Positions 9,408-58,989 of a DNA stretch of 64,000 nucleotides are shown here, in pieces. This DNA is from an uncultured Dehalococcoidia bacterium (lineage in GTDB: Bacteria > Chloroflexota > Dehalococcoidia > Lucifugimonadales > UBA1123), in NCBI GenBank assembly GCA_951812505.1, contig CATOSI010000002.1, forward strand, positions 1,043,228-1,107,227, given 5' to 3'. The notes below the pieces were generated by a model that saw only the letters and a list, made by a program, of their open reading frames with translations, searched no databases and was not told the DNA's origin. Made by a program: the position numbers and the translations under genes. Within the stretch, counting starts at the first letter, position 1. Every line of letters starts with the position of its first letter.

Positions 9408-10762
9408 CAGGCTGCGGAAGAATGGGTTGCAGAGCGGCGTAGGAGCAAGACTCGCTGCCTTGAAGAGCCTCATTCCGGCGCTTTTTGGCTCTCAGGAGGT
9501 TCCTGCACCGCTGTAATCGGCTTTCAGAAGGTTCGGCAGACACACCTCGCCCTGGGCAGAGCTATGCGAAGACGGGGACTCTGGCCTCTTCCTCAGCTAT
9601 CAGTCTCGACATTCTCACCAGGTTGTACGCAGTAGCCACCAACTCCCCATACAGTCCGGTTCTCTCCACTCCGCGATACCGACTCCGACGAAAGCCTCCC
9701 ACTGTCTTCATCCACCCGAAGATCGACTCCACACGCTTGCGAACCTTCTGACTCGCCGCATACCCGGCATGATGGGTCGTCCTCCCGTCTATCGCAGACC
9801 ATCTCTTCTTCTGGGCCACGTGCGGAGTGATGTTCAGGTCCCTGCACTCGGCAACGAAGTCCCTGCTGTCGTAGCCCCTGTCCGCTCCAACAGTCAGACG
9901 GCGGCTACCGGGTATCCGGATCAACATGTCCAGCGCCGCATCCCTCTCTGCCATGCCATTGGCCTCGGTCAGTCGGAAGTCGCTCACAAGACCGTGCCTG
10001 TTGTCCATAAGCGCATGGGCCATGAACACCAGCTTCGCCTCCTTACCCTTGCCCTTCCTCATCAGCCTGGACTCGGGGTCGGTCGTGCTCTCGTGTGTCT
10101 CGTTGCTCAGCTTCTCCCCCCGAAAGTCCTCCGTACGGCTTCCACCTTCCCCCGGACCCTTCGGGTTATCGTCAGCATCCTCATCCCGTCTTCTGAAGCT
10201 CTTTATGCTCGCGGCAGCCTCTATCAGCGTACCATCCACGCTGAAGCGCTCGTCTGACATGAGACCTCGGCGGTCAGCCTCGTACGCCACCTCCTCGAAC
10301 AGGGTCCTCCCCACCCTGTGTCTGAGCAGTCTTCTTCTGTTCTTGGTGAACACGGTCGCGTCGAAACTCGGCTCCATAAGGTCCATGTCCAGAAACCAGC
10401 GATACAGCAGGTTGTAGTCCAGTTCCTGGCAGAATGCTCTCTCACTGCGTATCGAGTACAGGGAGATCAGAAGAAGAGACTTCAGCAGTCGTTCGGGTGG
10501 GACGGAGGCTCGACCGACACTGGAGTACATCCTGTCGAAGTCGTCCGACATGCGGGAGAGAACGTCCTCGGCGACCTGTTTGATAGTCCTAAGAGGGTGG
10601 TCCGGTGGAACTCGTTCGTCGAGGTTGACGAAGGCAAGCATAGTGGACTGTGGGTTGCGTTTGCCTCTCATGGGACGGTCTCCTCTGTTGTCGCTTGTGG
10701 AGCTATTTTACTCCACAGACTCAGGGAAGACCTCCTATGCGGCTTTTTTCAGCAGCCTGCTA
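9405..10762. mobile_element. IS5-family insertion sequence
   Basis: About 1.36 kb, bounded by inverted repeats TAGCAGGCTGC (9405-9415) and its complement (10752-10762), with further partial match inside (GAA-AA). One transposase gene fills it. The left end coincides with the TAG stop of the enolase-family gene, so that gene keeps its reading frame. A short target duplication (TA or TNA) is possible but too small to prove. The copy looks intact. Confidence 0.85.
9562..10671 (-). CDS. IS5-family DDE transposase
   Basis: A 369-residue transposase. The N-terminal part (LLKSLLLISLYSIRSERAFC) is the usual IS5 DNA-binding region. Catalytic residues: Asp in FSVDGTLIEA, Asp in VGADRGYDSRDF, and Glu in RKRVESIFGWMK (the R-x3-E-x6-K pattern). 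Start ATG at 10671 with AGGAG 8 nt upstream. The frame is intact, so the element may still be active. Base composition is like the host. Confidence 0.92.
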   Translation of the reverse strand: MRGKRNPQSTMLAFVNLDERVPPDHPLRTIKQVAEDVLSRMSDDFDRMYSSVGRASVPPERLLKSLLLISLYSIRSERAFCQELDYNLLYRWFLDMDLMEPSFDATVFTKNRRRLLRHRVGRTLFEEVAYEADRRGLMSDERFSVDGTLIEAAASIKSFRRRDEDADDNPKGPGEGGSRTEDFRGEKLSNETHESTTDPESRLMRKGKGKEAKLVFMAHALMDNRHGLVSDFRLTEANGMAERDAALDMLIRIPGSRRLTVGADRGYDSRDFVAECRDLNITPHVAQKKRWSAIDGRTTHHAGYAASQKVRKRVESIFGWMKTVGGFRRSRYRGVERTGLYGELVATAYNLVRMSRLIAEEEARVPVFA

Positions 10763-10805
10763 AAGCATATCCATCAACCGTAATTCAGATTTAAGGAACA
10801 CAAAT

Positions 10806-11741
10806 TTGGCCAAGCGTATTAGTATAATCAATTTTAAGGGAGGCGTTGGCAAAACGACTCTCGCATTTCATCTTGGAACAGGACTCGCATGGATACATGA
10901 CGCCCGAGTGTTGCTTATCGATGTGGATCATCAAAGTAGTCTCTCTATCCTTTGCATGAGACCAAACGGATGGCAAAGTGCCATCCGAAGTAATCGGACC
11001 ATTGTTGAAGTATTCCGTTCATTCGTCAACCAACAAGCCAACAACCTCCCCGCTGACGAAATAATCGCCAAATCTCCGATGCATACAATTGACACCGACT
11101 ATGACACAATGGATGTTGTACCTGCTGATCTCGGACTAGACAATCTTGAAATCGAATTAACTTCCTCACTCCCTCAGGGAACCGCTATCCGGTCAGAATG
11201 GGACAAGAGAACGCTATTGTGTCGTTGGATTGAGGAGACTGGCATAGATGAACGATATGATTACATTATCTTCGATTGTCCACCTGCTACCAAGATTGTC
11301 TCTCAGAATGCAATTGCAGCTAGTCACAGCTATATCGTTCCGGTAGTACCCGAAGCAGTGATGGAACGTGGCGCCCCCCATTTGCGTGAGATGATGAGAA
11401 CGGGTATCGACGACCGACTAAAGGCCCTCGCTCAGTTTGGTGAGCACCGCGATATACACGTACCTGATACTGAGTTGGTCGGGTTGGTAATCACACGGAT
11501 ACAGTCCGCAAGTGGGGGGTACACCATTGACCATACGCAGCATCTAGGGTCATTAAGGAGACGTTGGAGTGATTCCTTGATTCGACCTTACATCTCGCAG
11601 GGTATTGGCGTCTCCGAGGCACTATCGCGCTATATTCCTGTTTACAACATGCATAAAACCCAGAATGTCGGTAAACGAGAAATTGATATTCAGTATATGA
11701 ACCTGACTAGCGAAATCAAGAAGAGGATTGATGGCTTATGA
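10806..11741 (+). CDS. ParA/Soj-family ATPase
   Basis: A 311-residue P-loop ATPase with the deviant Walker A KGGVGKTT at residues 11-18, the LLIDVDHQSS switch near 36-45 and the Walker B-like IIFDCPPA near 155. ParA proteins form nucleoid-bound ATP dimers that position DNA or protein cargo. Start is TTG at 10806 with AAGGAA 7 nt upstream. It overlaps the next gene by 4 nt, so the two are a unit. The pair is visibly AT-richer than its neighbours and follows an insertion sequence, signs of transfer. No ParB, parS cluster or replication gene is nearby, so plasmid partition is not supported. Confidence 0.85.
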   Translation: MAKRISIINFKGGVGKTTLAFHLGTGLAWIHDARVLLIDVDHQSSLSILCMRPNGWQSAIRSNRTIVEVFRSFVNQQANNLPADEIIAKSPMHTIDTDYDTMDVVPADLGLDNLEIELTSSLPQGTAIRSEWDKRTLLCRWIEETGIDERYDYIIFDCPPATKIVSQNAIAASHSYIVPVVPEAVMERGAPHLREMMRTGIDDRLKALAQFGEHRDIHVPDTELVGLVITRIQSASGGYTIDHTQHLGSLRRRWSDSLIRPYISQGIGVSEALSRYIPVYNMHKTQNVGKREIDIQYMNLTSEIKKRIDGL

Positions 11742-12253
11742 GAAACAATGACTCTAAGCGTATCCAATCGCTTCCCTATACAGAGGAGTGCCAAGTTCTT
11801 GTTACTGACATAGTAGGGTATCTGTCTGGTTTGGCGAAACTTCATGAGGCAGAAAAGACTGGCAATATACGATTGAGCGTAGGATTAAGACAGTTGGTAG
11901 AAGTCTTGCGCCCATATGCTAACGTCCCGGTATCGGAATTATCCGAAGTACTCAAACAACCAACCCTCCAGACAAAAACCAAACATGCCAATAGACAACC
12001 TAAAGTAACATTGCCATTCTGTCTTGAGAATCTGGGGCAACGGGAAATTGAAGGGATACTGGGTAACGACAGCTACACCAAAGATCAGATAGCAGAGCTC
12101 GGAGTTAAACGCTTCGGCATTTCCAGGTCGAAACTCTCCCGGCTTCGGAAGAGGGACGCCCAAGAATCTATACGTGCTGCGCTAGAGAATGAGAAGGCCC
12201 TCGATGTGATCTCTAGAGAGGCGCGTATCAGCGGTAGAGCAAGGTCGGCGTAA
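11738..12253 (+). CDS. Unknown ParA-linked protein, possible DNA-binding partner
   Basis: 171 residues, not recognised. The start overlaps the ParA stop (ATGA), implying translational coupling. The second half reads like a helix-turn-helix region: YTKDQIAELGVKRFGISRS followed by LSRLRKRDAQESIRAAL, strongly basic and helical. The middle is basic (KTKHANRQPK). By position it is the best candidate for a ParB-like or adaptor partner of the ATPase, but it shows no ParB nuclease-like motif. AT-rich like ParA. Function unknown. Confidence 0.65.
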   Translation: MRNNDSKRIQSLPYTEECQVLVTDIVGYLSGLAKLHEAEKTGNIRLSVGLRQLVEVLRPYANVPVSELSEVLKQPTLQTKTKHANRQPKVTLPFCLENLGQREIEGILGNDSYTKDQIAELGVKRFGISRSKLSRLRKRDAQESIRAALENEKALDVISREARISGRARSA

Positions 12254-16437: not shown

Positions 16438-16480
16438 GGCTCTGCCTCCGGTTTTGTCTGAATTGGATTGTCTCTTTTTG

Positions 16481-17723: not shown

Positions 17724-19271
17724 TCAAAGAGTGGAGCGCAGGTTTTGGATGACTTTGGGAAGTTGGGGGAGGAGGTCGCTCGCGAGCATTCCGGTGTCTC
17801 CGAGGGCGGACCTGACACGCTCCCCTGCCTCGCCGTGGAGGTACACGCCGAGCGAGGCGGCGTCGGCGAGGGGCACGCCCTGTGAGAGCAGGCCGACGAT
17901 TGCACCGGCAAGGACGTCGCCCGTGCCCGCGGTGGCGAGTCCAGGATTCGAGTACGGGGAGAGCATCGAGTTGCCATCCGGGGCGGCAACGACGGTGAAC
18001 GCGCCTTTGAGGATGACGGTCTTGTTCCACGAAGCGGCGGACCGGCGTGCGACTGCGATGCGATCGGAGCGAGCGTCCATTTCAGTCAGGCGAGTCATCT
18101 CGCCGGGATGGGGCGTGAGAATCGAATCGGCGGGCCATTGCTTCCACCAGTCCGATACCTGGGCGAGAGTGTTGAGACCATCAGCGTCGACCACGGTTGG
18201 AGGAAGCTGTGTTTCCGCGAGTAGAAGATCCCTGACCATTTGTCGGGTCTCGGAAGCCTGGCCGAGTCCGCAGCCGACGAGCAGAGCGCTGTACCCTTCT
18301 AGGGAGTCGAGGATGAGTTGGGCGGCGCTATTGGCGACTATTCCGGGGCTGGATTCGGGCAGGGGCAGGAAGGTCGGTTCGATGGCTTTGGAAGCGACGG
18401 ACGGGACGAGGCTTTCAGGAATGGCTATAGTCACCAGTCCGGCTCCGACGCGACCGGCGGCGCTTGCGGCGAGATAGGCCGCTCCAAGAAAGTTTCGGGA
18501 GCCGGCGACTATCATGGTGCGTCCGTAGGTGCCCTTGTGGGAGTTGGAGGGACGGGATGGTAGCACGGATGCGGCCCAGCGGTGGTCAATGAGGTCAAGG
18601 TGTACATCGGAGTCGAGGCCGAGAGGGATGCCGATGTCGGCGGTCTCAAGAGCGCCTGTGAAGTCGGCGCCAGGGAACGCGAGGTGTCCGCGCTTGGGGT
18701 AGCCGAGAGATACGGTGACATCGGAGGGGATGCAGGCGTGGTCAACTTCTCCCGTGTCGCAGTCGAGGCCGGTGGGGAGATCCATTGCGAGAAGGTGGAG
18801 TCTGGGGTTGTTTGACCTGGCTTCGTGGAGGGTGGTGAGTATGCCCTTGAACGCTCCTTCTATGGGTCTGGTGCGGCCTGTTCCGAGTATGGCGTCTATT
18901 ACGAGGTGCGAGTATGACAGAGACGCTTTCAGACGGAAGAGACCGGGATCGTTGGGGGCGGAAATGACACTTACGCCAACGTCTATTGCGGCGTCCAGCT
19001 TGGGATCGGGAGTGGCACGCTCTCGGCAGAGGTAGGCGGTGACATCCGCTCCCCAACGCTGGAGGTGTCGGGCGGTGACGAAGCCGTCGGCGCCGTTGTT
19101 GCCAGGGCCGATGAGCGTAAGTATAGGGACGCCCGCGAGAGGCCCCAGCATCCGGCGGGCGGCACGGGCAACGGCGAGACCGGCGTTCTCCATGAGGGTA
19201 TCGGTAGAGACGCCCGCGGTCTCGGAGCGTGCCTCTATTTCTCGCATCTGGTCGGCGGTGACGATTTTCAT
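17724..19271 (-). CDS. nnr: Bifunctional NAD(P)H-hydrate epimerase / ADP-dependent NAD(P)H-hydrate dehydratase
   Basis: Repairs damaged hydrated NADH and NADPH. 515 residues in two fused domains. N-terminal epimerase (1-215): MKIVTADQMREIEARSE, LMENAGLAVARAA and IGPGNNGADGFVTARHL. C-terminal ribokinase-like dehydratase (about 230-515): GSRNFLGAAYLAA, LTPHPGEMTRLTEMD and the nucleotide loop GTGDVLAGAIVGLL. ATG start at 19271. Before the cassette at 19315-22801 entered, glyA probably lay directly upstream on the same strand. A family C repeat occupies the short leader. Confidence 0.95.
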   Translation of the reverse strand: MKIVTADQMREIEARSETAGVSTDTLMENAGLAVARAARRMLGPLAGVPILTLIGPGNNGADGFVTARHLQRWGADVTAYLCRERATPDPKLDAAIDVGVSVISAPNDPGLFRLKASLSYSHLVIDAILGTGRTRPIEGAFKGILTTLHEARSNNPRLHLLAMDLPTGLDCDTGEVDHACIPSDVTVSLGYPKRGHLAFPGADFTGALETADIGIPLGLDSDVHLDLIDHRWAASVLPSRPSNSHKGTYGRTMIVAGSRNFLGAAYLAASAAGRVGAGLVTIAIPESLVPSVASKAIEPTFLPLPESSPGIVANSAAQLILDSLEGYSALLVGCGLGQASETRQMVRDLLLAETQLPPTVVDADGLNTLAQVSDWWKQWPADSILTPHPGEMTRLTEMDARSDRIAVARRSAASWNKTVILKGAFTVVAAPDGNSMLSPYSNPGLATAGTGDVLAGAIVGLLSQGVPLADAASLGVYLHGEAGERVRSALGDTGMLASDLLPQLPKVIQNLRSTL

Positions 19272-19277
19272 TTTGGA

Positions 19278-19305
19278 GTTGTCAGTTGTCAGTTATTAGT
19301 TTTTA
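19278..19305. repeat. Dispersed short repeat, family C
   Basis: AGTTGTCAGTTGTCAGTTATTAG between nnr and the glyA tail copy. Confidence 0.5.
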
Positions 19306-19314
19306 AGTTGGGGA

Positions 19315-19383
19315 TCAGAATTCTATGCCGGGGATGGGGAAGGATTTGGTCATCTGGATGACCTGTTCGCAGACGTGGGACTG
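19315..19383 (-). pseudogene. Displaced 3' end of glyA (second copy), possible attachment-site half
   Basis: Minus strand, in frame: [20 protein letters not shown] then EF and a stop. Intact GlyA ends [20 protein letters not shown] then DY. The DNA at 19322-19383 matches 22740-22801 at 57 of 62 positions. Similarity ends just inside the unit. The two copies are direct repeats enclosing the three-gene cassette, the pattern left by an element that inserts at the 3' end of a gene and restores it. Confidence 0.85.
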
Positions 19384-19407
19384 TGAGTTGCACAGTAGCA
19401 TCACTCA

Positions 19408-20367
19408 TCAGCGTGTAGTTATTTTCCTTCCGACATACACAACATACAGTCGCCCATCGTCAGATACAGGCCATGAAAAATGGACACGCAATAAGTCGCG
19501 ACTTACCTTACCGTGCCATGTGCAGAACAAGTATTTGTCTGGCTGTGTTGGGTGACGAAATGTTAGCTGACTGCGAAAATCACGTTTTTCAGGATCGGAC
19601 GAATCAGAAAATACGGCTCTTTTTCCAGTAAAGTGATTTTCGTACAACTTTCGGCTTTCAGGTGTCCAACGACCAACTCCACTGAGTGATTCTACAAATC
19701 GGTTCAACAGGTCCAACCGACTGACAATACCGTTTACCGCAGAAACTGAGAATGGGCGACCATCTAGGTCCTTGAAGCTGTCTTCCGCAAACGTGAGTCG
19801 TTGAAATCTGTGTCTCGAAACTGCTTCAAGTTCAACCCAAGTTGAAATAGGTGGTTCTACCACTTGCAAAGCAGATTCCAAATCCGAGGGTTGTCTGAAG
19901 TTACTGATCTCAATGTCATTTCTGGTATCCACTTCCCCTTTGGTCACCGTTATCGGCGAAAAGTCCCATTCGGACGGGATAAGGCTAACGACAGCACGTT
20001 CAATTCCAGTCATTGAACAGTACGCCACTTCAGCCAAAGCTGTATCATTCACCAACTCACCATTGCATTCGAACCATTCATTGGGATCGTGTTCAGGTAT
20101 ATCTTCCCAGAAAGGACCCTGTTGTGTGAGCCAAACCAAGAGAGCAACTTTTTCCTCTCTGGAGAATGTCTGGAGTTGCCGAAACACTGATGTGGTTGGA
20201 TTCACCATCCTATTAACGGTATTCCTATGGCAGTGTAGTTCTCGACCAAACTTTCTTGAGATAATCCTCATCTGTTGGATCCGCCCGATGGCAGATCGAA
20301 ATGTTGATGTGTCGTAGAACTGCCCGTGAATTGAGAGATCGTTGAGAATCAAGTCCACGCTATTCAC
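19408..20367 (-). CDS. Unknown protein, third gene of the DUF262/AAA cassette
   Basis: 319 residues, function not recognised. No signal peptide or membrane span. An N-terminal basic helical stretch (RKFGRELHCHRNTVNRMV, about 38-55) could bind nucleic acid. The C-terminus has a distinctive block CTWHGKVSRDLLRVHFSWPV from Cys282, then LYVVYVGRKIT, rich in aromatics, Cys and His. That is what one expects of a conserved effector-like domain, though I cannot name it. The GTG start at 20367 overlaps the AAA stop by 8 nt, so translation is coupled. AT-rich like its partners. Possible effector or nuclease, inferred from position only. Confidence 0.7.
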   Translation of the reverse strand: MNSVDLILNDLSIHGQFYDTSTFRSAIGRIQQMRIISRKFGRELHCHRNTVNRMVNPTTSVFRQLQTFSREEKVALLVWLTQQGPFWEDIPEHDPNEWFECNGELVNDTALAEVAYCSMTGIERAVVSLIPSEWDFSPITVTKGEVDTRNDIEISNFRQPSDLESALQVVEPPISTWVELEAVSRHRFQRLTFAEDSFKDLDGRPFSVSAVNGIVSRLDLLNRFVESLSGVGRWTPESRKLYENHFTGKRAVFSDSSDPEKRDFRSQLTFRHPTQPDKYLFCTWHGKVSRDLLRVHFSWPVSDDGRLYVVYVGRKITTR

Positions 20368-21520
20368 CCCAGCCAGCGAAATAGTTCATGTCCTTGTCGA
20401 ATTGGTCGAAGAAGTCTTCAGGCCATACATCAATGTTTCCCGCACTATCTAATGTTGGACTCAACACCTGCGGTTCATCTTCAGACGGCCTTCTAAAAAA
20501 GTGAATAACTACGTCTCCTGCGGCTATCTTATCCGACTTCACGGCCCTACGAATGCCATTGAGGACGTGGTCGCTATGGGTCTCAACTATGACTTGGCAT
20601 CCTGAATTCGCAGCTTCAGCTAGGAAATGGCCCATAAGAGCTTGACCGGCCGGGTGTAAATGAACTTCGGGGTTTTCGATCAGCAAGACGTTTTCATCGT
20701 TGTACGGCCTAGAGAGGGCGGCGACTATTATCGGAAGAACTTGTGTGATGCCAAAACCGCAGTGAATAGGGCGTAGGAATCCAGTACCGTCCAATACCCT
20801 TATTCCCAACGTTACGGCACTAACGTTGGATACTTGTTGCAAATCAAGCGAACATCCTGGGAAGAATCGAGCTAACCAAGCTTCGGTTTGCCGCAACAAA
20901 GTAGGTACTGTGTCCTGAAGACGCAACTCGCGAGCAACCCTTCTGTCTCGGCTGTTGAACAATACACTAACAGCATTCTCGCCTCGAGGACCAACCAAAT
21001 CTACTGAGTGCCGATCCTCAAGTGAATATAATTCACGTGGCCCCTCTCTTTCAGCCGTAAGGTAGGTCAGATTTAGAATCTGATTGGTCACTCGCCAAGC
21101 AACTTCGTCTTCATATTCTGAGTCAAAAGTGTAAGGCATCAGATGTCGCAGGACAGGTCGAGTTTGGCCTACCTCACCTCCAACCTCCACTCTGTCAACA
21201 GCAAGAGACATATCATCGCGATCTCCTGTGAACACCCACTCGCATGTTTCTCCTGAGTCGATTAGGCCGATACTGAAACTATCTCGACCGTATATCTGGC
21301 TAACAACATCGGGTAGCGTGCCTAATCTAACCACACTCCCATTTAAAATAAGGCGTTCAGCCCACTCGTCATCACGCATTGTTTGATGTAACAATGCAAG
21401 AGATTGAAGAACCGAAGACTTACCAGAAGCATTTGTCCCTGACAATAGTGTTAGAGGCGCAAGTGGAAGTTTTAGCAACTCAAAGCACTTGAATCTCCTA
21501 AGCTCAAGCTGCTCAAGCAC
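20360..21520 (-). CDS. AAA family ATPase, DUF3696/SMC-ABC-like
   Basis: A 386-residue ABC-type ATPase. Starts LEQLELRRFKCFELLKLPL, with Walker A GTNASGKSS at 28-36, a signature-like GFGITQVLP at 255-263, Walker B VLLIENPEVHLHP at 278-290 and switch His in VETHSDHVLN near 315. This is the layout of the OLD/RecF-like ATPases with DUF3696-type tails, common in phage-defence operons. The start is GTG at 21520 behind a perfect AAGGAGG, 8 nt inside the end of the DUF262 gene. A longer in-frame start at 21619 would overlap DUF262 by 107 nt and is unlikely. No nuclease (TOPRIM) domain is visible in it. Confidence 0.88.
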   Translation of the reverse strand: MLEQLELRRFKCFELLKLPLAPLTLLSGTNASGKSSVLQSLALLHQTMRDDEWAERLILNGSVVRLGTLPDVVSQIYGRDSFSIGLIDSGETCEWVFTGDRDDMSLAVDRVEVGGEVGQTRPVLRHLMPYTFDSEYEDEVAWRVTNQILNLTYLTAEREGPRELYSLEDRHSVDLVGPRGENAVSVLFNSRDRRVARELRLQDTVPTLLRQTEAWLARFFPGCSLDLQQVSNVSAVTLGIRVLDGTGFLRPIHCGFGITQVLPIIVAALSRPYNDENVLLIENPEVHLHPAGQALMGHFLAEAANSGCQVIVETHSDHVLNGIRRAVKSDKIAAGDVVIHFFRRPSEDEPQVLSPTLDSAGNIDVWPEDFFDQFDKDMNYFAGWGE

Positions 21521-22625
21521 CGAAAACCTCCTTAAGCATCTCGTGAACCGCTTTGAAACGAGTAGTGACTCTTCTGGTATCGTTTGTACCATAGGTAATT
21601 GCTGAAATGAATTCGTCATCCTTCATCAGGTAGAAAAATGCGGATCGGAGTTTATGAACTTGAGATTCAATTAACTTAGGCTCATATCTGGAAAGCCCAG
21701 TTGACATTACATCCCATAAAGATGCATTAATCACATTTCGGTGCTCCTGGAATTCTGTATGCTTGCGAAAAGCGTGCCTACCAAAAACCTTAAGGTTATT
21801 GGTAAGACCGGTCCGAAACTGGGACGACAGTTCCGAGAGTTCAATCTCTTCCATCTTATTCATACGTGTAAGCGTTTTGGCGAGAAGTTCGTCCATTTCT
21901 CCACGATATTCCTTTAGAGCAAGGAGTTGAAATCCACAGAATCTGTTTACGAACTCACGATCTCGCATCGTAGTGGTTCTTAAGCTTCTTCCGGTGGCAT
22001 CTAAAAACAGCGTCGTGGTTGCCTCTTCTTTGAGAAAACGGGTAGCGGGACCCATATAGAGAGAATTCCGCATTTGTTGCCTTGTCAAGGGTACGCCGCT
22101 GTTTACTCTTTCAAAAATATCCAACCTTGCCCTCTCCGGTGCTTTGGAGTCAATAACATATAGAGTTAGATTGCAGTCTTCGACTCTGTTCTGTAGTTTA
22201 GTAGCAATATCACTAAAATGTTTACCGTTCAACTCCTCTTGATCTTTCAGGCGAAGACGCAACTCATCATCCACAAACCTTCGAAAAGTGGATAAACGCT
22301 GCAATCCGTCAACCACTATCATTCGACCTTGTTCGTCTTCAGCAAGATAAAACACAGGCAATGGTATCCTCATCAGTACTGATTCGATTAGCTTGCTCTG
22401 TTTAGTATCATCCCATATAAAATCTCTTTGAAAATCTGGATCCATTACATATTGCCCTTGTTTTATTCTCCGCAGCACATCATGTACAGTACGGTTCTCA
22501 TTTCGGATTAATACCGTATCGAGTGGATAGTCTCCCCAAGAAGCATCGTCGTCAAAGCCTATACCTTCCGGTTCTTCTTCCAACTCTGGACGTGTCTGTT
22601 CTGTGGTCATCGCCTTCATCTCCAT
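21513..22625 (-). CDS. DUF262-domain protein (ParB/GmrS-like)
   Basis: 370 residues. The DUF262 core is clear: PDFQRDFIW from 63, KLIESVLMRIPLPVFYL, VVDGLQRLSTF from 104 (usual DGQQR, here Leu for the first Gln), and FERVNSGVPLTRQQMRN from 171. DUF262 is the ParB-like NTPase/nucleotide-sensing half of GmrSD-type restriction systems. The DUF1524 HNH nuclease half is absent, so cutting would have to come from another protein. ATG at 22625 with AGGA 7 nt upstream. First gene of the three-gene operon; the 107-bp AT-rich leader has a possible but weak promoter. AT-rich composition and the flanking glyA repeats indicate acquisition. Confidence 0.88.
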   Translation of the reverse strand: MEMKAMTTEQTRPELEEEPEGIGFDDDASWGDYPLDTVLIRNENRTVHDVLRRIKQGQYVMDPDFQRDFIWDDTKQSKLIESVLMRIPLPVFYLAEDEQGRMIVVDGLQRLSTFRRFVDDELRLRLKDQEELNGKHFSDIATKLQNRVEDCNLTLYVIDSKAPERARLDIFERVNSGVPLTRQQMRNSLYMGPATRFLKEEATTTLFLDATGRSLRTTTMRDREFVNRFCGFQLLALKEYRGEMDELLAKTLTRMNKMEEIELSELSSQFRTGLTNNLKVFGRHAFRKHTEFQEHRNVINASLWDVMSTGLSRYEPKLIESQVHKLRSAFFYLMKDDEFISAITYGTNDTRRVTTRFKAVHEMLKEVFGA

Positions 22626-22732
22626 ATCGGATTCCTATCTGAATCTCTGCGAAGAATCTAACATCATCTCAATATCTTTGACAAACTATCAGAGGAACCA
22701 TACTGATTTTAGGTAGGCGGAGTGGTTTGGAT

Positions 22733-23977
22733 TCAGTAGTCTATGCCGGGGATGGGGAAGGACTTGGTCATTTCGATGACCTGTTCGCGGACGCGGGACT
22801 GGGTGTGTTTGCTGCCGATGTCCTGGAGGACTTCGAGGATGAGTCGTCCGACGCGGCGCGTTTCCTCTTCCTTGAAGCCGCGACTTGTAATGGCAGGAGT
22901 GCCAAGCCGGACTCCGCTGGCGGTCCTGGGAGGCTTAGGGTCGTAGGGGATGGCGTTGCGGTTGACGACGATGTTTGCCCTGCCAAGGGCTTCCTCGGCC
23001 TGCCTACCCGTAACATCGAGGGGTCTGAGATCAACGAGGGTCATGTGGTTATCGGTGCCGCCCGCGACGAGTCGAAGGCCGCCCTGGGCAAGTGTGTCGG
23101 CGAGAGCTACGGCGTTTGCCCTGACCTGACGCTGGTACTGGATGAATTCTTCAGTCATCGCCTCGCCGAAGGCGACCGCCTTGGCAGCGATTGTGTGCTC
23201 CATCGGGCCGCCCTGGGCGTTTGGGAAGACGGCGCTGTTGACGGTGCGGGCGTGGCCGGAGTCGGACAGGATCATGCCGCCGCGAGGACCTCTGAGCGTC
23301 TTATGGGTGGTGGAGGTGACGATCTGAGCCTCGCCGACGGGTGAGGGATGCTCTCCGGCGGCCACCAGTCCGGCGATGTGCGCCATGTCCACCATGAGCT
23401 TCGCACCGACCTCGTCGGCAATCTGCCGGAACCGGGGAAAGTCTATGGTGCGGGTGTAGGCGGTCGCGCCGGTCACTATCAGCCTGGGGCGGCTCTCTTT
23501 CGCCTGCCTCTCGACCTCGTCGTAGTCAATGGTCTCGAGTTCCCTGTCCACTGTGTACGACACGAAGTTGTAGAGCTTGGATGAGAAGTTGACCGGGCTG
23601 CCATGCGTCAGGTGGCCGCCGTGATCAAGTCCGAGTCCCATGACGGTATCGCCGGGCTGGAGGGCGGCGAAGTAGGCGGCCATGTTCGCCTGGGCACCCG
23701 CGTGGGGCTGGACGTTGGCGTGCTCTGCGCCAAAGAGTTCCCTGGCGCGGTCTATCGCGAGCTGTTCGACCACATCCACGAACTCGCATCCACCGTAGTA
23801 GCGCCTTCCAGGGTATCCCTCGGCGTACTTGTTGGTGAATACGGAGCCCTGCGCCTCCAGCACGGCCCGGCTGGCGTAGTTCTCGGACGCTATCAGGTTG
23901 ATGTTCTCGCGCTGTCTGCGATTTTCGCTATCTATAGCGTCTGCGACGCGGGGGTCGAGTTCGCGGAGTGTGGTCAT
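22733..23977 (-). CDS. glyA: Serine hydroxymethyltransferase
   Basis: Interconverts serine and glycine with tetrahydrofolate, using pyridoxal phosphate. 414 residues, normal length. The cofactor Lys is K226 in [27 protein letters not shown] and [10 protein letters not shown] are also diagnostic. ATG at 23977 with GGAG 6 nt upstream. The last 62 coding bases before the stop are repeated at 19322-19383. The 3' end now attached to glyA was therefore probably brought in by the cassette, with the native end displaced toward nnr. Composition of the gene itself is host-like. Confidence 0.97.
22740..22801. repeat. Direct repeat with 19322-19383, 3' end of glyA
   Basis: 62 bp, 5 mismatches to the distal copy, same orientation, 3.4 kb apart. 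Interpreted as the right attachment half of the DUF262/AAA cassette. Confidence 0.85.
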
Positions 23978-26575: not shown

Positions 26576-27790
26576 GTGATGACGCAGGTTGCGGGACGGA
26601 ACGGTGTCGGCGGTGGAATTGCGGGATGGATGTCGCGGCGGTTCGGGCGCGGGAGGCGGGAATCTGATGTCGCTCCCCTGCCCGTCATATCGTCGGACAC
26701 GACAAAGGGGCACCTCGGGGTCCTGGACAGCGGGCTTCCGGGCACATACGCCGGGTACTACTTCACGTCGGTGCCGGTGTATGCGGCTATCAAGCTGAGG
26801 GCGGACGCGGTGGCGAGGCCGGGTCTGAAGGTGTACCGGGTCAGCACGATCCACGGTCAGCCGCGCAGGGAGTGGGTCGGGCACGATCATCCGGCTCAGG
26901 AGCTCCTGGATAGAGTGAATCCCCACTGGACGGGCGGCGACCTTTGGCGGGCGACGGAGACGTACTTGAATCTCTGGGGCGAGTCGTACTGGGCAGTGGA
27001 ACGGGACGAAGCCGGCGTTCCAGTCGAACTGTGGCCGCTGAGACCGGACAGGGTGAGGGTCGTGCCGGACGAGAGGGAGTACATCCACGGATATGTCTAT
27101 AGCGGGCCGTCGGGGGACTCGGTCCCGCTGGCGCCGGACGAGGTGGTGCGGCTGCGGTACTTCAATCCGCTTGAGGAGTACGCGGGCCTGTCACCGGTCG
27201 GGCCGGTGCGCCTGTCGGTGGATATGGGTCGGGACGCGCTGAAGGGAAACAGGTCGGGGTTCGAGAACGACGCCACTCCGGGTGTCCTGTTCGAGACGGA
27301 TACGGCGTACTCGGACGCTGAAATCGACAGGTTCTACAAGATCTGGACGCTGAGGCACAAGGGCCCAAATAACAAGCTGCGTCCGGGAATCCTGTCGCCG
27401 GGGATGAAGGCGTCGCAGGTAGGGTTTTCTCCGAAGGATATGGAGTATCTGAACACACTGCGCTGGACGGTAGAGGACGTGGCGCGGGCGTTCAACGTTC
27501 CGAAGCCGCTGCTGCACGACCTGGAGAGGGCGACTTACGCGAATATAGAGACGACGCGCCGGATGTTCTGGGAGACGTGCGTCGTACCGGAGCTAAAGTT
27601 CTTCGAGGAGGTGCTGCGGGAGCGCCTGCTGCCGATGTTCGGGGAGTCGTCGCTGGTGGCGGAGTTCGATACGTCGAGTATCGAGGCGCTGCGGGAGTCG
27701 GAGACGGAGCGCGCCCGCCGGATCAGCATGTACGTGTCGGCGGGGGTAATGACCGTGGAGGAGGCGCGGGCGGAGGTGGGGCTGGGGTGA
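26576..27790 (+). CDS. Phage portal protein, HK97 family
   Basis: Forms the dodecameric ring at the capsid vertex through which DNA enters. 404 residues. Diagnostic stretches: AAIKLRADAVARPGLKVYR near 75, LWGESYWAVERDEAG near 140, HGYVYSGPSG, SPGMKASQVGFSPKDMEYL near 275, and RAFNVPKPLLHDLERATYAN near 300. The start is GTG at 26576 with AAGGAG 8 nt upstream. The protease and capsid genes that normally follow directly are 3 kb downstream, separated by unrelated genes. No terminase gene precedes it; rnpB does. Confidence 0.9.
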   Translation: MMTQVAGRNGVGGGIAGWMSRRFGRGRRESDVAPLPVISSDTTKGHLGVLDSGLPGTYAGYYFTSVPVYAAIKLRADAVARPGLKVYRVSTIHGQPRREWVGHDHPAQELLDRVNPHWTGGDLWRATETYLNLWGESYWAVERDEAGVPVELWPLRPDRVRVVPDEREYIHGYVYSGPSGDSVPLAPDEVVRLRYFNPLEEYAGLSPVGPVRLSVDMGRDALKGNRSGFENDATPGVLFETDTAYSDAEIDRFYKIWTLRHKGPNNKLRPGILSPGMKASQVGFSPKDMEYLNTLRWTVEDVARAFNVPKPLLHDLERATYANIETTRRMFWETCVVPELKFFEEVLRERLLPMFGESSLVAEFDTSSIEALRESETERARRISMYVSAGVMTVEEARAEVGLG

Positions 27791-27794
27791 AGTT

Positions 27795-27904
27795 TGTCAG
27801 AATCAGGATTTGCGGGATTGGGGGCTGTTCAGGATGTGCATTGTGGGTGCGGCGCTGTGGTTATCCTGTTTATCTTAACATCCTGTGCATCCTGATTCTG
27901 ATGG
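27795..27904. repeat. Inverted pair of family B repeats
   Basis: GTCAGAATCAGGATTTGCGG from 27795 and the reverse form ending CATCCTGATTCTGATGGG at 27904 face each other around a 20-30 bp centre. Together they could form a long hairpin after the portal gene. Confidence 0.65.
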
Positions 27905-27942
27905 GGATGAGGGGATGCTTGTAGCATAGCCGCCTTAATGCC

Positions 27943-28572
27943 TTATGTACTAACTGATACGGCCAGGTAGCGGAATTGTTCACCAGGGCCGATTCCTAAA
28001 TTCGAATAGTTTTCCCACTGCAGGTGATAAGAGTTCTTCAGATTTATCTGCTCTTCCCTGCCCTTAACCGTATTCTTATTGACTGTGGCTGACCAGTGGA
28101 GATTTCCTCCAAGTTGCCTGTCTTCGTGGAGGCGAAAGGCAGCGTCCATAGTATTTTGCCAATTCGACGACGGTGGTCTCCAGTAATAAGAGTCGTTTGT
28201 GAGCAATACCGCGAATCCATTCCTAGCGGTCTTTCCTTGTCCCACGATGCTCTCGATCCGTTCAATGTCCTTGACGAAGTCGTATCGGCGCAATGGGTTA
28301 GCAGCCTGGTTTCTCAGGGAGAAGATCTCCCCGCCATATTCAGATTCCAACTGCCTTGTGAAATATTTCAATTCGATCACTGTACCCTCGTTCGACAGCC
28401 ATATATCGACGTAAATCCCATCAAGTGGAAATGGCTTGAATTCTAGCCTTATCTCGGATTCGGGCATTGATTTCTTGATATGCCACGCAAGCGCAAATTG
28501 GAAGTCGGCCTCCAAATGGAAGATTGGTCTTCGTATTGCGAGTTCTTCCATTATCTTGTGAATGTCTATCAA
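27943..28572 (-). CDS. Putative PD-(D/E)XK nuclease-like protein
   Basis: 209 residues. The N-terminal half reads HLEADFQFALAWHI, then DGIYVDIWLSNEGTVIELKY: a Glu, an Asp and an ELK spaced as in the restriction-endonuclease fold. LRRYDFVKDIERIES and GFAVLLTNDSYYW follow. I recognise this as a widespread uncharacterised family; nuclease activity is inferred from the motif. It is on the opposite strand to the phage genes and AT-richer, so it was probably inserted into the head module. The region 28573-28793 upstream shows no other gene. Confidence 0.65.
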   Translation of the reverse strand: MIDIHKIMEELAIRRPIFHLEADFQFALAWHIKKSMPESEIRLEFKPFPLDGIYVDIWLSNEGTVIELKYFTRQLESEYGGEIFSLRNQAANPLRRYDFVKDIERIESIVGQGKTARNGFAVLLTNDSYYWRPPSSNWQNTMDAAFRLHEDRQLGGNLHWSATVNKNTVKGREEQINLKNSYHLQWENYSNLGIGPGEQFRYLAVSVST

Positions 28573-28793
28573 CTCACTCCTCGTTTCTATTTTCAGAATT
28601 TTGGTGTCGCCGGTTCACAGGCAGACAACGGTATCAGCCGTATTTCGGCCCTGTTTCATCGCATCAGTCAACCAAATTGGCCGTGCATGGGATTCTGTTA
28701 GAATCTGGGCTGATAGTGGGCCACTCGTTTAGGTCAATTTCATGCAGGCACCAGTACAAGTCGCAAAGCGCCATGAAATGAAAGGATAGTACA

Positions 28794-29894
28794 TTGAAGA
28801 TAACGAACGTGAAGGTGGAGATGTTCAATTGGAAGTCGGAGCCGTGGATGACGGGGGTCGGGACGACGTTCGGGGATACCCGGCAGCTTGGGATCGTTAC
28901 GGTGGAGACGGACGAAGGGGTGAGTGGCAACGCGTTCCTGGGGTCGTCGCGGGTGGGGGCGAATCACTTCGCGCCCGGGCTCATCGAGTTCATCAAGCCG
29001 ATAGTCATGGGCCGCAATCCGCAGGACATCGGCGCGATCTGGTGGGATATGTGGAAGATGAACAGGTCGGTCTCGACGTATGTGATCGGCGCGATTGACA
29101 TCTGCCTGTGGGACATCAACGGGAAGATCGCCGGCCAGCCGATTCATAGACTGCTGGGGACGTGCAAGGACTCTATGCCGGTGTATTCGAGCACAGCGTA
29201 CCACGAGTCGAAAGAGGAGTACGCGGAGGAGGCGATCCGGTTCAAGGAGATGGGCTGGCAGGCGCACAAGATCCATCCGCACGGGAATCCGATGTACGAC
29301 ATCGAGATTTGCCAGGCGGTGCGCGAGGCAGTCGGCGACGACATGAAGCTGATGCTGGACTCGATGTGGGCGTACCAGTACGAGGACGCGATGCGCGTCG
29401 GACGGGCCATCGAGGATCTGAATTACTACTGGTACGAGGACCCGCTCGTCGAAGAGGACATATACAACTACGTGAAGCTGCACCAGAAGCTGGACATTCC
29501 GATCATGTCCACCGAGTACGCTCCCGGCCGGTACTACGGTATGACATCGTGGATCACGCAATACGCGACTGACATCCTGCGCGGGGACGTGGCGGTCACG
29601 GGTGGCATAACCCCGATGGTGCGGCTGTGCCACCTCGCCGAGGGCTTCAACATGAAGTGCGAGATTCATCACGGGGGGAATTCTCTCAACAATGTGGCGA
29701 ATCTGCATATCATGATGGCGGTACCGAACTGCGAGTTCTTCGAGTTCTTCCCCTGCACCGGGGACAATATGTACGGTCTGGTGAACGACATAGACATGAC
29801 GGGCGGCATGGTCCACGCACCGACGGAGCCGGGCCTGGGCTACGAGATAGACTGGGACCTGGTGAAGCGGGAGTACACGGCGACGGCGGAGTAG
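28794..29894 (+). CDS. Enolase-superfamily protein (mandelate racemase/muconate lactonizing type)
   Basis: 366 residues. Capping domain from MKITNVKVEMFNWKSEPWMT, acid/base strand QAHKIHPHGN (a K-x-H pair rather than K-x-K), metal ligands in MLDSMWAYQ, YYWYEDPLVEED and MSTEYAPG, and CEIHHGGNSLNNVANLH near the C-terminus, whose His could be the second base. Substrate not known. The start is TTG at 28794 with AAGGA 7 nt upstream. It lies in the middle of a phage head module, an odd place for a catabolic enzyme; composition is host-like. One of four superfamily members in 30 kb. Confidence 0.85.
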   Translation: MKITNVKVEMFNWKSEPWMTGVGTTFGDTRQLGIVTVETDEGVSGNAFLGSSRVGANHFAPGLIEFIKPIVMGRNPQDIGAIWWDMWKMNRSVSTYVIGAIDICLWDINGKIAGQPIHRLLGTCKDSMPVYSSTAYHESKEEYAEEAIRFKEMGWQAHKIHPHGNPMYDIEICQAVREAVGDDMKLMLDSMWAYQYEDAMRVGRAIEDLNYYWYEDPLVEEDIYNYVKLHQKLDIPIMSTEYAPGRYYGMTSWITQYATDILRGDVAVTGGITPMVRLCHLAEGFNMKCEIHHGGNSLNNVANLHIMMAVPNCEFFEFFPCTGDNMYGLVNDIDMTGGMVHAPTEPGLGYEIDWDLVKREYTATAE

Positions 29895-29966
29895 ATCAAT
29901 TAGGAATTCGGGGCGTCCGGCGTTGGCGCGGGCGTCCCCGGTCAGGATGGGGTTAGGAGGTTGGCG

Positions 29967-30269
29967 ATGCGGATAGACATTGAGGAGGCGGGGAAACAGC
30001 TCGCCAAGCTGGGCAGTTACGCCCAGACAGGCGAGAAGGTGGTGATTACGAAGGACGGGGAGGCATATATGGAGCTTGTTCCGTGTCCAGAACATCGGGA
30101 GGGGCGGGAAAGAGACAAAGGCACTTCTGTTCGCAGGATAGGAATCATGGAGGGAGAGATTTGGATGGCGCCAGACTTCGATGAAACACCGGAGGACCTG
30201 ATAGATTTGTTCTATAATGCGCCAGTCTTCCCTTCAGACGATAACGAAGACAGTAAGGACAGGCAGTAA
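29967..30269 (+). CDS. Phd/YefM-type antitoxin
   Basis: A 100-residue antitoxin. The N-terminal DNA-binding segment MRIDIEEAGKQLAKLGSYAQ then TGEKVVITKDGEAYMELVP is the Phd/YefM fold; the acidic tail (APDFDETPEDLIDLF) should wrap the toxin. ATG at 29967 has TAGGAGG 6 nt upstream. It is followed after 2 nt by the VapC-type toxin. Such pairs usually repress their own promoter. The tail is longer than in many YefM proteins. Confidence 0.85.
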   Translation: MRIDIEEAGKQLAKLGSYAQTGEKVVITKDGEAYMELVPCPEHREGRERDKGTSVRRIGIMEGEIWMAPDFDETPEDLIDLFYNAPVFPSDDNEDSKDRQ

Positions 30270-30271
30270 GA

Positions 30272-30649
30272 TTGCGTCTTCTGCTGGATACCCATGCACT
30301 GATATGGGCGCTCAGAAACGATCCGACGATAGGCACGCAGGCGCGGGAAGCTATCGGGGACCCGGACAATGAAGTCTTCGTAAGTGTGGTCAGCGTTTGG
30401 GAGATTTCAATCAAGCGCGCCATGGGCAGACTTGATGTCCCGGCAGATTTTGTCGAGCGGATAAGAAACGCGGACTTCGTACCACTTCCGGCAGACTTCG
30501 ATCATGCAGAGTTGGCGGGTCGGCTGCCTCTGCATCACAGAGACCCGTTCGACAGGATGCTGGTGGCGCAGGCGCAGGTCGAGAATCTCATTTTGGTCAC
30601 CCGGGATCGCAACATTCTGCGTTACGAAGTGGAGACATTGACGGCTTAA
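30272..30649 (+). CDS. VapC-type PIN-domain toxin
   Basis: A 125-residue PIN ribonuclease. Catalytic acids: Asp in LLLDTHALIWAL, Glu in SVWEISIK, Asp in HHRDPFDRMLVAQA and Asp in LVTRDRNI. VapC toxins cut tRNA or rRNA when their antitoxin is lost. The TTG start at 30272 follows the antitoxin stop by 2 nt. The pair sits between the inserted enolase gene and the protease leader, and may stabilise the inserted block. Confidence 0.88.
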   Translation: MRLLLDTHALIWALRNDPTIGTQAREAIGDPDNEVFVSVVSVWEISIKRAMGRLDVPADFVERIRNADFVPLPADFDHAELAGRLPLHHRDPFDRMLVAQAQVENLILVTRDRNILRYEVETLTA

Positions 30650-30662
30650 TCCGAAATTGCTC

Positions 30663-30693
30663 TTGACAAACGTACAATTGTTCGTGCTAGTAT
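30663..30693 (+). promoter_or_regulatory. Promoter of the protease-capsid unit with palindrome in its spacer
   Basis: -35 TTGACA (30663-30668), 19-nt spacer, extended -10 TGCTAGTAT (ends 30693). The spacer contains CGTAC-AATT-GTTCG (30671-30684), a palindrome one base away from the Gram-positive-type LexA box CGAAC-N4-GTTCG. A repressor bound here would block transcription. Confidence 0.6.
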
Positions 30694-30793
30694 AGGACAT
30701 TGATTGTTGCCCTATGCGAAATCGGGCGGCGCCTGCATCAGGACTGCCGAGACAATCGAATAGAGACGGAGTAACCGTCCCAAACAGGTCTGT

Positions 30794-30837
30794 AAACGGC
30801 CCTCTCTGGCGAGTGAATCGCCTTGGAGGGCCGTTTT
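30794..30837 (+). terminator. Terminator-like hairpin in the leader of the prohead protease gene
   Basis: Outer stem AAACGGCCCTC / GAGGGCCGTTTT (11 bp) with an inner GGCGA/TCGCC stem, then TTTTG. It ends 12 nt before the ribosome site of the protease gene and about 100 nt after the promoter's start. Possible attenuator, or terminator of a short RNA of about 140 nt. The leader also has a small GACGG/CCGTC hairpin near 30765. Confidence 0.7.
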
Positions 30838-30861
30838 GCGTTAGCGAAGGGAGGATGATTG

Positions 30862-31581
30862 ATGAGGAATGACGGAGTGAGTGGTGGAGAGGTTGGAGAT
30901 GGCGACGGTTATGCCGGCGCGGCGCTCAGATCGGCGGCGACCATAGGAGACAGCAGGGCCATCGGCGAAGACATGTACTCGGTGACTATCTTCGCCAACG
31001 AGCTTTCCAGGGACGGAATGAGCGTGGACCTGGATGGAATGGACTTCTCCAACTATGAGAAGAACCCGGTGGTGCTCTACGCGCACGACCATATGGGCAG
31101 GACGGATTCGGGCGGTCTTCCAATAGGCCGGACGGTTCGGCTGGCGCGGACGAGCGACGGGCACATCAGGGCGGACTTCGAGTTTCTGGCGGGCGACGCG
31201 TTCGCGGAGCGGGTGCGGAACGCCTGGGAGCAGGGCTTCCTGCGTGGGGCCTCAATCGGATGGCGTCCGGTGGAGACGCGGCCATCCGGTCGCAGAGTGA
31301 GAGCGGTGAGGTCGGAGTTGCTGGAGTGGTCAATCGTGGCTGTTCCGGCAGACCCGGACGCTCTGAGAGACGTGTATCTGCGTGTGGTGAGAGCGATGCT
31401 GAATCCGCCGCCGGACGGCGCGAACGCAGGCGAGTCGGTGATATTCGACCATCGGGGCGAGTCAACCTCTCCCATCGAGGGAGAAGGGTTGAATGAAGAG
31501 GAGGTGGATCTGGGAGAAACACGGAGACTGCTGACTGATTTCAAAGAGCGAGTTCTGTCTGAATCAGGATTTACGGGATGA
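30862..31581 (+). CDS. Phage prohead protease, HK97 family
   Basis: Serine protease that matures the capsid. About 239 residues. Catalytic His is in VVLYAHDHMG near 78 and Ser in LRGASIGWRP near 132; WSIVAVPADPDA near 160 is also typical. ATG at 30862 with GGGAGG 7 nt upstream. The last 40 residues are not native: STSPIEGEG is encoded by a family A repeat (31464-31490) and SESGF by a family B repeat (31556 on). Two dispersed repeats have therefore run into its 3' end, and the gene may have lost its original tail. Confidence 0.9.
   Translation: MRNDGVSGGEVGDGDGYAGAALRSAATIGDSRAIGEDMYSVTIFANELSRDGMSVDLDGMDFSNYEKNPVVLYAHDHMGRTDSGGLPIGRTVRLARTSDGHIRADFEFLAGDAFAERVRNAWEQGFLRGASIGWRPVETRPSGRRVRAVRSELLEWSIVAVPADPDALRDVYLRVVRAMLNPPPDGANAGESVIFDHRGESTSPIEGEGLNEEEVDLGETRRLLTDFKERVLSESGFTG
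31464..31490. repeat. Dispersed repeat, family A, inside the protease gene
   Basis: AACCTCTCCC-ATCGA-GGGAGAAGGGTT, in frame within the protease coding sequence. Confidence 0.7.
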
Positions 31582-31598
31582 GCTTGATGTACAGGATG
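31556..31598. repeat. Dispersed repeat, family B, at the end of the protease gene
   Basis: GTCTGAATCAGGATTTACGG and TGTACAGGATGG. Encodes the last residues of the protease. It is followed by CCTTCGGGATTCACGCCTTC (31613-31632), a further dispersed motif repeated near 33344. Confidence 0.7.
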
Positions 31599-31734
31599 GT
31601 CGGGTTGTGGAGCGGCGAGCCCTTCGGGATTCACGCCTTCGTGGATATGACAGTAGTGGGTTAGACAAAAGTAGGGACAGGGCGCCCACGAGGGACGCCC
31701 CTACGTGTTTGGCATATATAGCAATAGTGAGAAT

Positions 31735-33276
31735 ATGGGAGAAAGAGAATTGACGAACGCGATTGAAGAGATAAGAGAGATCAACAGGAGCATCGGGGAG
31801 ATCGGGAGCTTCGTGAAGGAGCGCACCGACGAGTTGAGCGGCGACGTGAGTCTGCTGAAGGAGGAGAACGAGCGGCTGAAGCTGGATGTCGGGAGGATGC
31901 AGGAGCGGATGCGGGAGCGTCGTCGCTCCGAGATCGCCCGCGTGGACGGCTCAGAGCGCGGCATCAGGGTCAGAGAGGGAAGGTTCGCGGGCTACAGTCC
32001 GCTGGACGTGGGAATCATGCGCGTGGTGGCCCAGAACCACCGCGACGACCCTGACGCGCCCCACGCCCGGGTCTGGGCGGAACAGCTCGGTGAAGCGACG
32101 CGCTCGCTGATAAGCGGGATTGGGGCGGACGATGTTGACCGCCACTTCCAGAGCATCGAGCGGCGTCTCAGAAAGGCCTACGTACAGGAGTCGCTGCCGG
32201 GCACGCTCGCGAGGGACCCGGAACTCCAGTACAGACAGGTGATCCAGCCGATGCTGACCCACCTCCGCGACCTGGCGATAAGGGCGGCGCTGGACTCCAC
32301 GACGGCGGGCGCGGGCGACGAGCTCGTCCCGACGCTGGAACGCGCGGAGTTGTGGATGGACGTGAATCTGCGGACTCTGGTGGCGGGACTGATCCCGACG
32401 TTCTACATGCCGAGCCAGCCGTTCGACATACCGACACAGCTCGGGGAAGTGAACTTCTTCCCCGGAACCGAGAACGCGGCGGCGAGTTCGTCCGCGCCCT
32501 CGACCGGGAAAGTTTCGCTGTCGGCGCACGAACTGGTAGCGCAGGTGCCATTCAGCTTCTCGCTGGAGGAGGACAACGTTCTGCCCTCGCTGCTGGGGGA
32601 GATCCGGTCGAGCCTGGTGAGGAACACGGCCGAGGTGCTGGACGACATCATCCTTAACGCCGACACGAGCCAGAGCAACAACATCAATGCGGACGGCGCG
32701 AGTGTCAGGAACGACACGGCCGGGAAGGCGCACTGGCTGGTGGGCTACAACGGCCTCATCCACCTGCCGCTAGTCGACAACACGGAAATGGCCAACAACC
32801 ACAACGCCGTGGTATCGGCGGATATGTTCAACGAAATACGGGCGAAGATGGGCCGCTACGGAGTGCGTCCGTCGGAGCTGGCGTGGGTGATGGACGTCAA
32901 TACCTACATTCGCGCGCAGTCTGTCGAATCGTTCAGGACAATGGACAAGCTGGGGCCGAACGCGACGCTGCTGAGCGGAATGCTGGGCGCGGTGGAGGGC
33001 ATCCCCGTGATCGTGTCCGAGCACATGAGGCTGGCGGACGAGGACGGCAAGGTGACCGACGCGGGCAACGCGACGGATACCGGCCGCCTGCTCCTCCTGA
33101 ACCGCACCCAGTGGGCGCAGGGCTTCAGACGGCAGCTGAGGGTGGACGTGGACCGCGATACCCAGAAGCGGCAGACGGTGGTTACGGTCAGCTTCAGGCA
33201 CGCGCTCGCGGAGCGGAGCGGGAATCGCTCGGAGGCGACGCACACCGCTCTCCAGTACAACATCAAGATCAATTGA
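31735..33276 (+). CDS. Phage major capsid protein, HK97 fold
   Basis: 513 residues. The N-terminal 90 residues are a charged coiled coil (IEEIREINRSIGEIGSFVKE and LKEENERLKLDVGRMQER), the delta/scaffold region normally removed by the protease. The HK97-fold part runs from about 180: TTAGAGDELVPTLERAELWM, AHELVAQVPFSFSLEEDNVL, VMDVNTYIRAQSVESFRTMD and MLGAVEGIPVIVSEHM. Start uncertain: ATG 31735, TTG 31750 (GGGAG 8 nt upstream), or a longer form from 31705. It lies 150 bp after the protease across several dispersed repeats, so the cluster is intact but littered. Confidence 0.9.
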   Translation: MGERELTNAIEEIREINRSIGEIGSFVKERTDELSGDVSLLKEENERLKLDVGRMQERMRERRRSEIARVDGSERGIRVREGRFAGYSPLDVGIMRVVAQNHRDDPDAPHARVWAEQLGEATRSLISGIGADDVDRHFQSIERRLRKAYVQESLPGTLARDPELQYRQVIQPMLTHLRDLAIRAALDSTTAGAGDELVPTLERAELWMDVNLRTLVAGLIPTFYMPSQPFDIPTQLGEVNFFPGTENAAASSSAPSTGKVSLSAHELVAQVPFSFSLEEDNVLPSLLGEIRSSLVRNTAEVLDDIILNADTSQSNNINADGASVRNDTAGKAHWLVGYNGLIHLPLVDNTEMANNHNAVVSADMFNEIRAKMGRYGVRPSELAWVMDVNTYIRAQSVESFRTMDKLGPNATLLSGMLGAVEGIPVIVSEHMRLADEDGKVTDAGNATDTGRLLLLNRTQWAQGFRRQLRVDVDRDTQKRQTVVTVSFRHALAERSGNRSEATHTALQYNIKIN

Positions 33277-33422
33277 GAATTGGCAATTAGGAGTTAAGAA
33301 TCAGGGGCAGGGTCCCTGCCCCTATGGATTGCCTAACGGCGAGCCCTTCGGGGTTCCCGTTTTCACGGGAATGACGAGTGGGCGGGGCTTGTCCTCGCCC
33401 CTGATCTTTAGAGGAGAAACGG

Positions 33423-34241: not shown

Positions 34242-34264
34242 TAGAAGCAGGAGTCTGGAATAGC

Positions 34265-55823: not shown

Positions 55824-55914
55824 GGAGGGGTGGCCGAGTGGACGAAGGCACCTGTCTTGAAAACAGGCATACGTTAAGCGCGTATCATGGGTTCGAATCC
55901 CATCCCCTCCGCCA
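55824..55914 (+). tRNA. tRNA-Ser, anticodon UGA
   Basis: 91 nt including the encoded CCA end. Acceptor stem GGAGGGG / CCCCTCC, D arm TGGCCGAGTGG, anticodon stem-loop CCTGT-CTTGAAA-ACAGG with anticodon TGA, long variable arm (CATACGTTAAGCGCGTATC) typical of serine tRNAs, and T arm ATGGGTTCGAATCCCAT. Confidence 0.98.
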
Positions 55915-58904: not shown

Positions 58905-58989
58905 CAAAGTCCCTTCCCCCTTCACGGGTTGAGAGGGGTATGCAAAGTCCCTTCCCCCTTGACGGGGGAAGGTTAGGATGGGGGTGAAA
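58905..58989. repeat. Two tandem copies of a family A-like repeat
   Basis: GCAAAGTCCCTTCCCCCTTC and GCAAAGTCCCTTCCCCCTTG, followed by ACGGGGGAAGGTTAGGATGG and GGGTG. Variant of the family A theme; a third copy is at 62665-62707. Confidence 0.8.

Follow-up and report, generated by a model that had tools for sequence, protein, structure and literature searches.

The closest described counterpart of the locus reported here is Menshen, a defence system that a review presents as a DUF262 component with an OLD-type partner (PMC10952713). The setting of the locus is best compared with integrative elements at the 3′ ends of genes, of which SGI1 at trmE is an example (PMC8409611). We analyzed a 64,000-nucleotide (nt) stretch of contig CATOSI010000002.1 from an uncultured Dehalococcoidia bacterium (hereafter, the window), in which three reverse-strand genes, nsnA, nsnB, and nsnC, are flanked on each side by a copy of the glyA 3′ end. 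On balance, we slightly favor the reading that this Menshen-type trio entered as one 3.3-kb unit at the glyA 3′ end, with a predicted phage resistance exerted via a RelE-fold effector at the end of NsnC.

All three proteins were matched by PADLOC profiles. NsnA (370 aa; 21513..22625, reverse strand), a DUF262 protein (GmrSD_N; Pfam PF03235), matched NsnA profile PDLC03877 over residues 19–368 (392.8 bits, E 4.6e-118). NsnB (386 aa from a GTG; 20360..21520, reverse strand), an ABC/AAA ATPase with a DUF3696 end (Pfam AAA_15, AAA_21, and DUF3696), matched NsnB profile PDLC03878 over residues 35–415 of a longer open reading frame (ORF) (338 bits, E 2.2e-101). NsnC (319 aa from a GTG; 19408..20367, reverse strand), in which no Pfam domain was found, matched NsnC profile PDLC03896 over residues 5–318 (341 bits, E 1.9e-102). 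We take the names NsnA, NsnB, and NsnC to be those of Menshen (Millman et al., 2022). Judged by these profiles, the adjacent genes in the order A-B-C are the Menshen system NsnA-NsnB-NsnC. The original prediction had found no named system for the trio; the PADLOC match supplies the name, and an unnamed new system was rejected. The NsnC type of the window is already covered by a PADLOC model, and the trio itself is a known system.

The likeness to Menshen extends from the three components to their order and to the overlapping of the genes. A mechanical ORF list starts nsnB at ATG 21619, giving a 107-nt overlap with nsnA, while GTG 21520 is the start position that matches nsnB homologues and is most likely the true start. 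With the start at this GTG, nsnA/nsnB and nsnB/nsnC overlap by 8 nt each, in agreement with the tight overlaps first proposed. Two differences from Menshen were observed: duplicated glyA ends such as those bordering the trio were not seen at ten other NsnC-bearing loci, and the window NsnB gave no match to the TOPRIM domain that the review associates with a Menshen component (PMC10952713).

The unit is bordered by a direct repeat of the glyA 3′ end, 82 nt long and 85% identical. The proximal copy (22725..22806, reverse strand) is the working 3′ end, with stop codon, of an intact glyA encoding serine hydroxymethyltransferase (22733..23977, reverse strand; Pfam SHMT 539 bits, NCBIfam PRK00011 620 bits). 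The distal copy (19307..19388, reverse strand), detached from any gene, is likely the displaced former 3′ end. Both assignments draw on repeat search, genome search, and codon comparison. The pair is the longest direct repeat within 17800–23800, and the two copies are the only strong matches to the glyA tail in the own genome (E 4e-37 and 7e-21; next 0.27). The earlier count of 57 identities in 62 bp is exact for the core of the repeat, as a codon-table count showed, and homology extends beyond it on both sides; the distal copy also reads as a GlyA tail, its translation aligning with the tail of the intact gene. Inside the unit, the GC content is 0.454, compared with 0.618 and 0.603 in the 5-kb flanks, which is the minimum among 607 equal-length stretches taken every 100 nt across the window and bears out the AT-rich interior noted originally. 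Outside the genes, the 3.3-kb unit holds 99 nt on the glyA side, a short AT-rich spacer between glyA and nsnA (22626..22724), and 19 nt at the far end, and nothing else.

An unoccupied site emerged from the comparison of glyA-nnr junctions that the original prediction had proposed. In the closest genome searched (G002, the sister), GlyA is 93% identical, and glyA and nnr lie 28 nt apart with nothing between them. G002 was the sole relative with nnr adjoining glyA among 29 glyA loci (each with a flank of at most 1.5 kb), so a single genome underlies the empty site. In the window, nnr, the former glyA neighbour according to the sister locus (NAD(P)H-hydrate epimerase/dehydratase; 17724..19271, reverse strand; Pfam and NCBIfam), is adjoined by native intergenic DNA (19272..19314) that runs on into the distal tail and whose final 8 nt double as the outer edge of the distal repeat. 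This nnr-side DNA matched the 28-nt intergenic region of the sister (0 of 5000 shuffles as good), whereas the glyA-side spacer did not (415 of 5000 shuffles as good). Since only the nnr side matches, the old native end is likely represented by the far tail together with its adjoining intergenic DNA; foreign DNA likely begins directly after the near tail. With the sister as outgroup, eight of the nine differences between the tails were assigned to the far tail. Six of seven changed codons in the far tail altered the amino acid, compared with one of six when the working tail was set against the sister (Fisher p 0.029). A tail pushed out of its gene would show such a pattern, although the numbers are small. 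Elsewhere in the genus, small HicA/HicB toxin-antitoxin-like ORFs were noted by eye only 3′ of glyA in genome G001 (L012 2655–3271).

From its gene content, we would guess the host to be a SAR202-like member of the Chloroflexota. NsnC of this type is rare in the lineage. Sampling 393 genomes of the class yielded it in the own genome only, and it was found in seven of 400 phylum genomes, again counting the own one; acquisition of the trio is therefore likelier than its loss. Nor were glyA, cassette, and second tail seen as a fixed arrangement in relatives. We read ten other NsnC-bearing loci, from six genomes of the same phylum, one Acidimicrobiia genome, and plasmids of Crinalium, Cupriavidus, and Gluconobacter, and all ten carried NsnA-NsnB-NsnC in the same order. 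PADLOC confirmed the Nsn names for nine proteins from three of these loci, and the Acidimicrobiia proteins are 65, 55, and 48% identical to those of the window. Counting the window, all 11 loci had a cassette richer in AT than its 4-kb flanks. On the Cupriavidus taiwanensis plasmid (L144), H-NS-family genes flank the trio on both sides as a direct repeat of 335 nt (80% identity); on the Gluconobacter thailandicus plasmid (L145 2351–7387), it lies directly between two recombinase-family genes in a cassette-like layout. Separately, 20 class loci (L089–L108) carry NsnA-like DUF262 genes, with no NsnB or NsnC recognisable by tblastn in the fetched stretch.

The locus shares with integrative elements at gene 3′ ends, such as SGI1, direct repeats of the target's end at both borders, a restored and intact target gene, foreign composition inside, and an empty site in a relative. 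It differs in that the unit measures 3.3 kb only and holds no integrase or mobility gene. The compact cassette at the glyA 3′ end that had been proposed, lacking a recombinase gene, is supported by the empty site in the sister. We propose that a recombinase, acting from elsewhere or since lost, would have joined the unit, which brought a glyA tail of its own, to the tail of the resident gene; glyA would thereby have retained a functional end, and its old end would have been displaced to the nnr side. Three routes are possible: a recombinase in trans, a since-lost integrase, or recombination with an incoming glyA-bearing fragment.

Several results weigh against reading the unit as a straightforward mobile element. 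No recombinase gene was found within it, where the space outside genes is confined to the two short stretches given above, and ten other-strand ORFs of at least 60 aa matched no recombinase family (Pfam, E up to 1). A six-frame search of the own genome gave 14 tyrosine-integrase and four resolvase-type matches, none of which falls within the window; in the 1.5 kb around each of the 14, no copy of the glyA tail was present. Among 20 relatives, one of them the sister, no comparable second tail was detected in the stretches downstream of glyA (0.4 to 15 kb; three below 2 kb); the best tail-like match had E 8e-4 over 21 nt, compared with 5.6e-23 in the window. Gene-end repeats were likewise absent within 2.5 kb of the borders at all ten other NsnC-bearing loci.

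These results bear on two other accounts of the arrival. In the first, what entered at the glyA 3′ end was a larger integrative element encoding an integrase, from which a later deletion left only the Menshen genes between the attachment sites. Integrase elements typically have gene-end repeats of such length, and the integrase and resolvase matches elsewhere in the genome are in keeping with this account, as are two plasmid copies of the trio, one flanked on each side by a recombinase-family gene and the other with an integrase gene about 5 kb away. However, so tightly packed a unit would require an almost perfect deletion at each end, and the other-strand frames retain no match to a recombinase family; we consider this account less probable than the preferred reading. 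Comparably doubtful is the second, in which the repeat is a local duplication scar and the trio came by homologous or illegitimate recombination, for example, by natural transformation with a fragment bearing a glyA end, without forming a mobile unit. The absence of a recombinase gene inside the unit and of such borders in the 20 relatives and ten other loci speaks for it, but the repeat coincides precisely with the two borders of the foreign DNA, where one copy completes glyA and the far one abuts native intergenic DNA, as site-specific insertion at a gene end predicts. A tRNA target was rejected, the sole tRNA in the window being at 55824, as was an insertion sequence (IS)-borne or integron-like insertion, since the borders are glyA ends and neither the trio nor the ten other-strand frames match any transposase or recombinase family.

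Returning to the preferred reading of entry as one unit, we evaluated NsnC as its candidate effector. Residues 1–175 (19843..20367, reverse strand) are the part common to other NsnC types: in five of the ten PADLOC NsnC models matching the window protein, the best stretch lies inside residues 4–170. Residues 187–319 (19411..19809, reverse strand), which carry the conserved motifs WHGK, R-x-H-x-x-WP, and Y-x-G-x-K, are predicted to adopt a RelE/YafQ/YoeB-like fold and form the candidate effector. For the earlier suggestion that the third protein may be the effector, this predicted fold is the sole support. By hhalign, the probability of a match between the C-terminal domain and RelE/ParE was below 5%; the score exceeded those of 99 of 100 column-shuffled decoys with the whole domain and of all 100 with the insert removed, the alignment covering the first strand and helix only, and the C-terminal 40 residues were indistinguishable from decoys, of which 44 of 100 scored as well. 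Compared with RelE/YafQ/YoeB/ParE-type toxins, whose fold it is predicted to share, the domain sits in a larger protein, has an extra segment at about residues 250–280, and shows no significant sequence similarity, and the unit has no room for a small antitoxin gene.

A competing view is that the effector is not NsnC: either the NsnB ATPase or the DUF262 protein would cleave nucleic acid directly, as happens in OLD-family and GmrSD-type systems. In its favor, the review ties an OLD-type TOPRIM domain to a Menshen component and states that Menshen resistance is abolished by mutation or deletion of the DUF262 gene (PMC10952713), and NsnB resembles OLD-family ATPases (6p74, E 9e-11). However, the C-terminal TOPRIM nuclease domain of OLD-family ATPase-nucleases (GajA, OLD) was not matched in the window NsnB (E up to 1) or in four homologues (E up to 0.01). 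NsnA shares the DUF262 domain with the GmrSD type IV restriction system (DUF262 plus DUF1524), but PF03235 was its only match at E up to 1, with no DUF1524 or HNH domain beside it, as originally observed; its motif VDGLQR, conserved in an alignment of five lineages, also differs from the (I/V)DGQQR described for GmrS in the review (PMC10952713). We regard a nuclease role for NsnA or NsnB as unlikely.

In the preferred reading, NsnA, whose DUF262 domain binds nucleoside triphosphates in studied relatives, and the ABC ATPase NsnB could serve as sensor and switch. NsnC residues 1–175 would dock on NsnA/NsnB, and the last 133 residues, once released, would act on translation or mRNA. This type of Menshen might then be a phage-triggered translation stopper, whose RelE-fold toxin domain, lacking a separate antitoxin, would be restrained by the DUF262 switch and the ABC ATPase. 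The trio, in turn, might travel as a 3.3-kb cassette that has no integrase, uses a recombinase supplied in trans, and mends glyA with the spare gene end it carries; taken as a whole, we rate this proposal a long shot. The literature passages searched gave no account of how Menshen kills. The effector domain of NsnC may already have been described by Li et al., 2025 (gkaf357), a study of Menshen domain polymorphism cited in PMC12704722 and PMC12839542.

Other features of the window were also recorded. Phage head genes with host-like GC occupy 26576–36076 on the forward strand, encoding a portal (26576–27790), a maturation protease (30859–31581), a major head protein (31705–33276), a head-tail adaptor (33423–34241), and a tail terminator-like start (34241–36076), and may represent a prophage remnant or a gene-transfer-agent-like cluster. 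An enolase-superfamily-like gene (28794–29894, by eye only) and other DNA are interspersed among them. The reverse-strand proteins at 27943–28572, inside this cluster, and at 48413–49267 matched nothing in Pfam (E up to 0.01) or in PHROG (E up to 0.001). At 9562–12253, an IS transposase gene (DDE) adjoins a ParA-like gene and a gene for a 171-aa protein without a PHROG match. Two families of 45–47 nt repeats (TGTCAGAATCAGGATTT... and AAAGTCCCTTCCCCCTT...) were also noted, one at 16479, 17594, and 27795 and the other at 58906, 58944, and 62662; the three copies in each family are 62 to 96% similar to the reference copy.

The setting described here, in which duplicated glyA ends enclose a cassette comprising scarcely more than its three genes, is perhaps new; as one case it is an anecdote, but a testable one. 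With its empty site, restored gene, and decaying old tail, it offers a clean example of how a defence system can enter as a unit barely larger than its genes. Menshen, in turn, gains a testable candidate effector in the last 133 residues of NsnC. If integrase-free gene-end cassettes recur, border repeats could reveal mobile defence units that integrase searches have missed.
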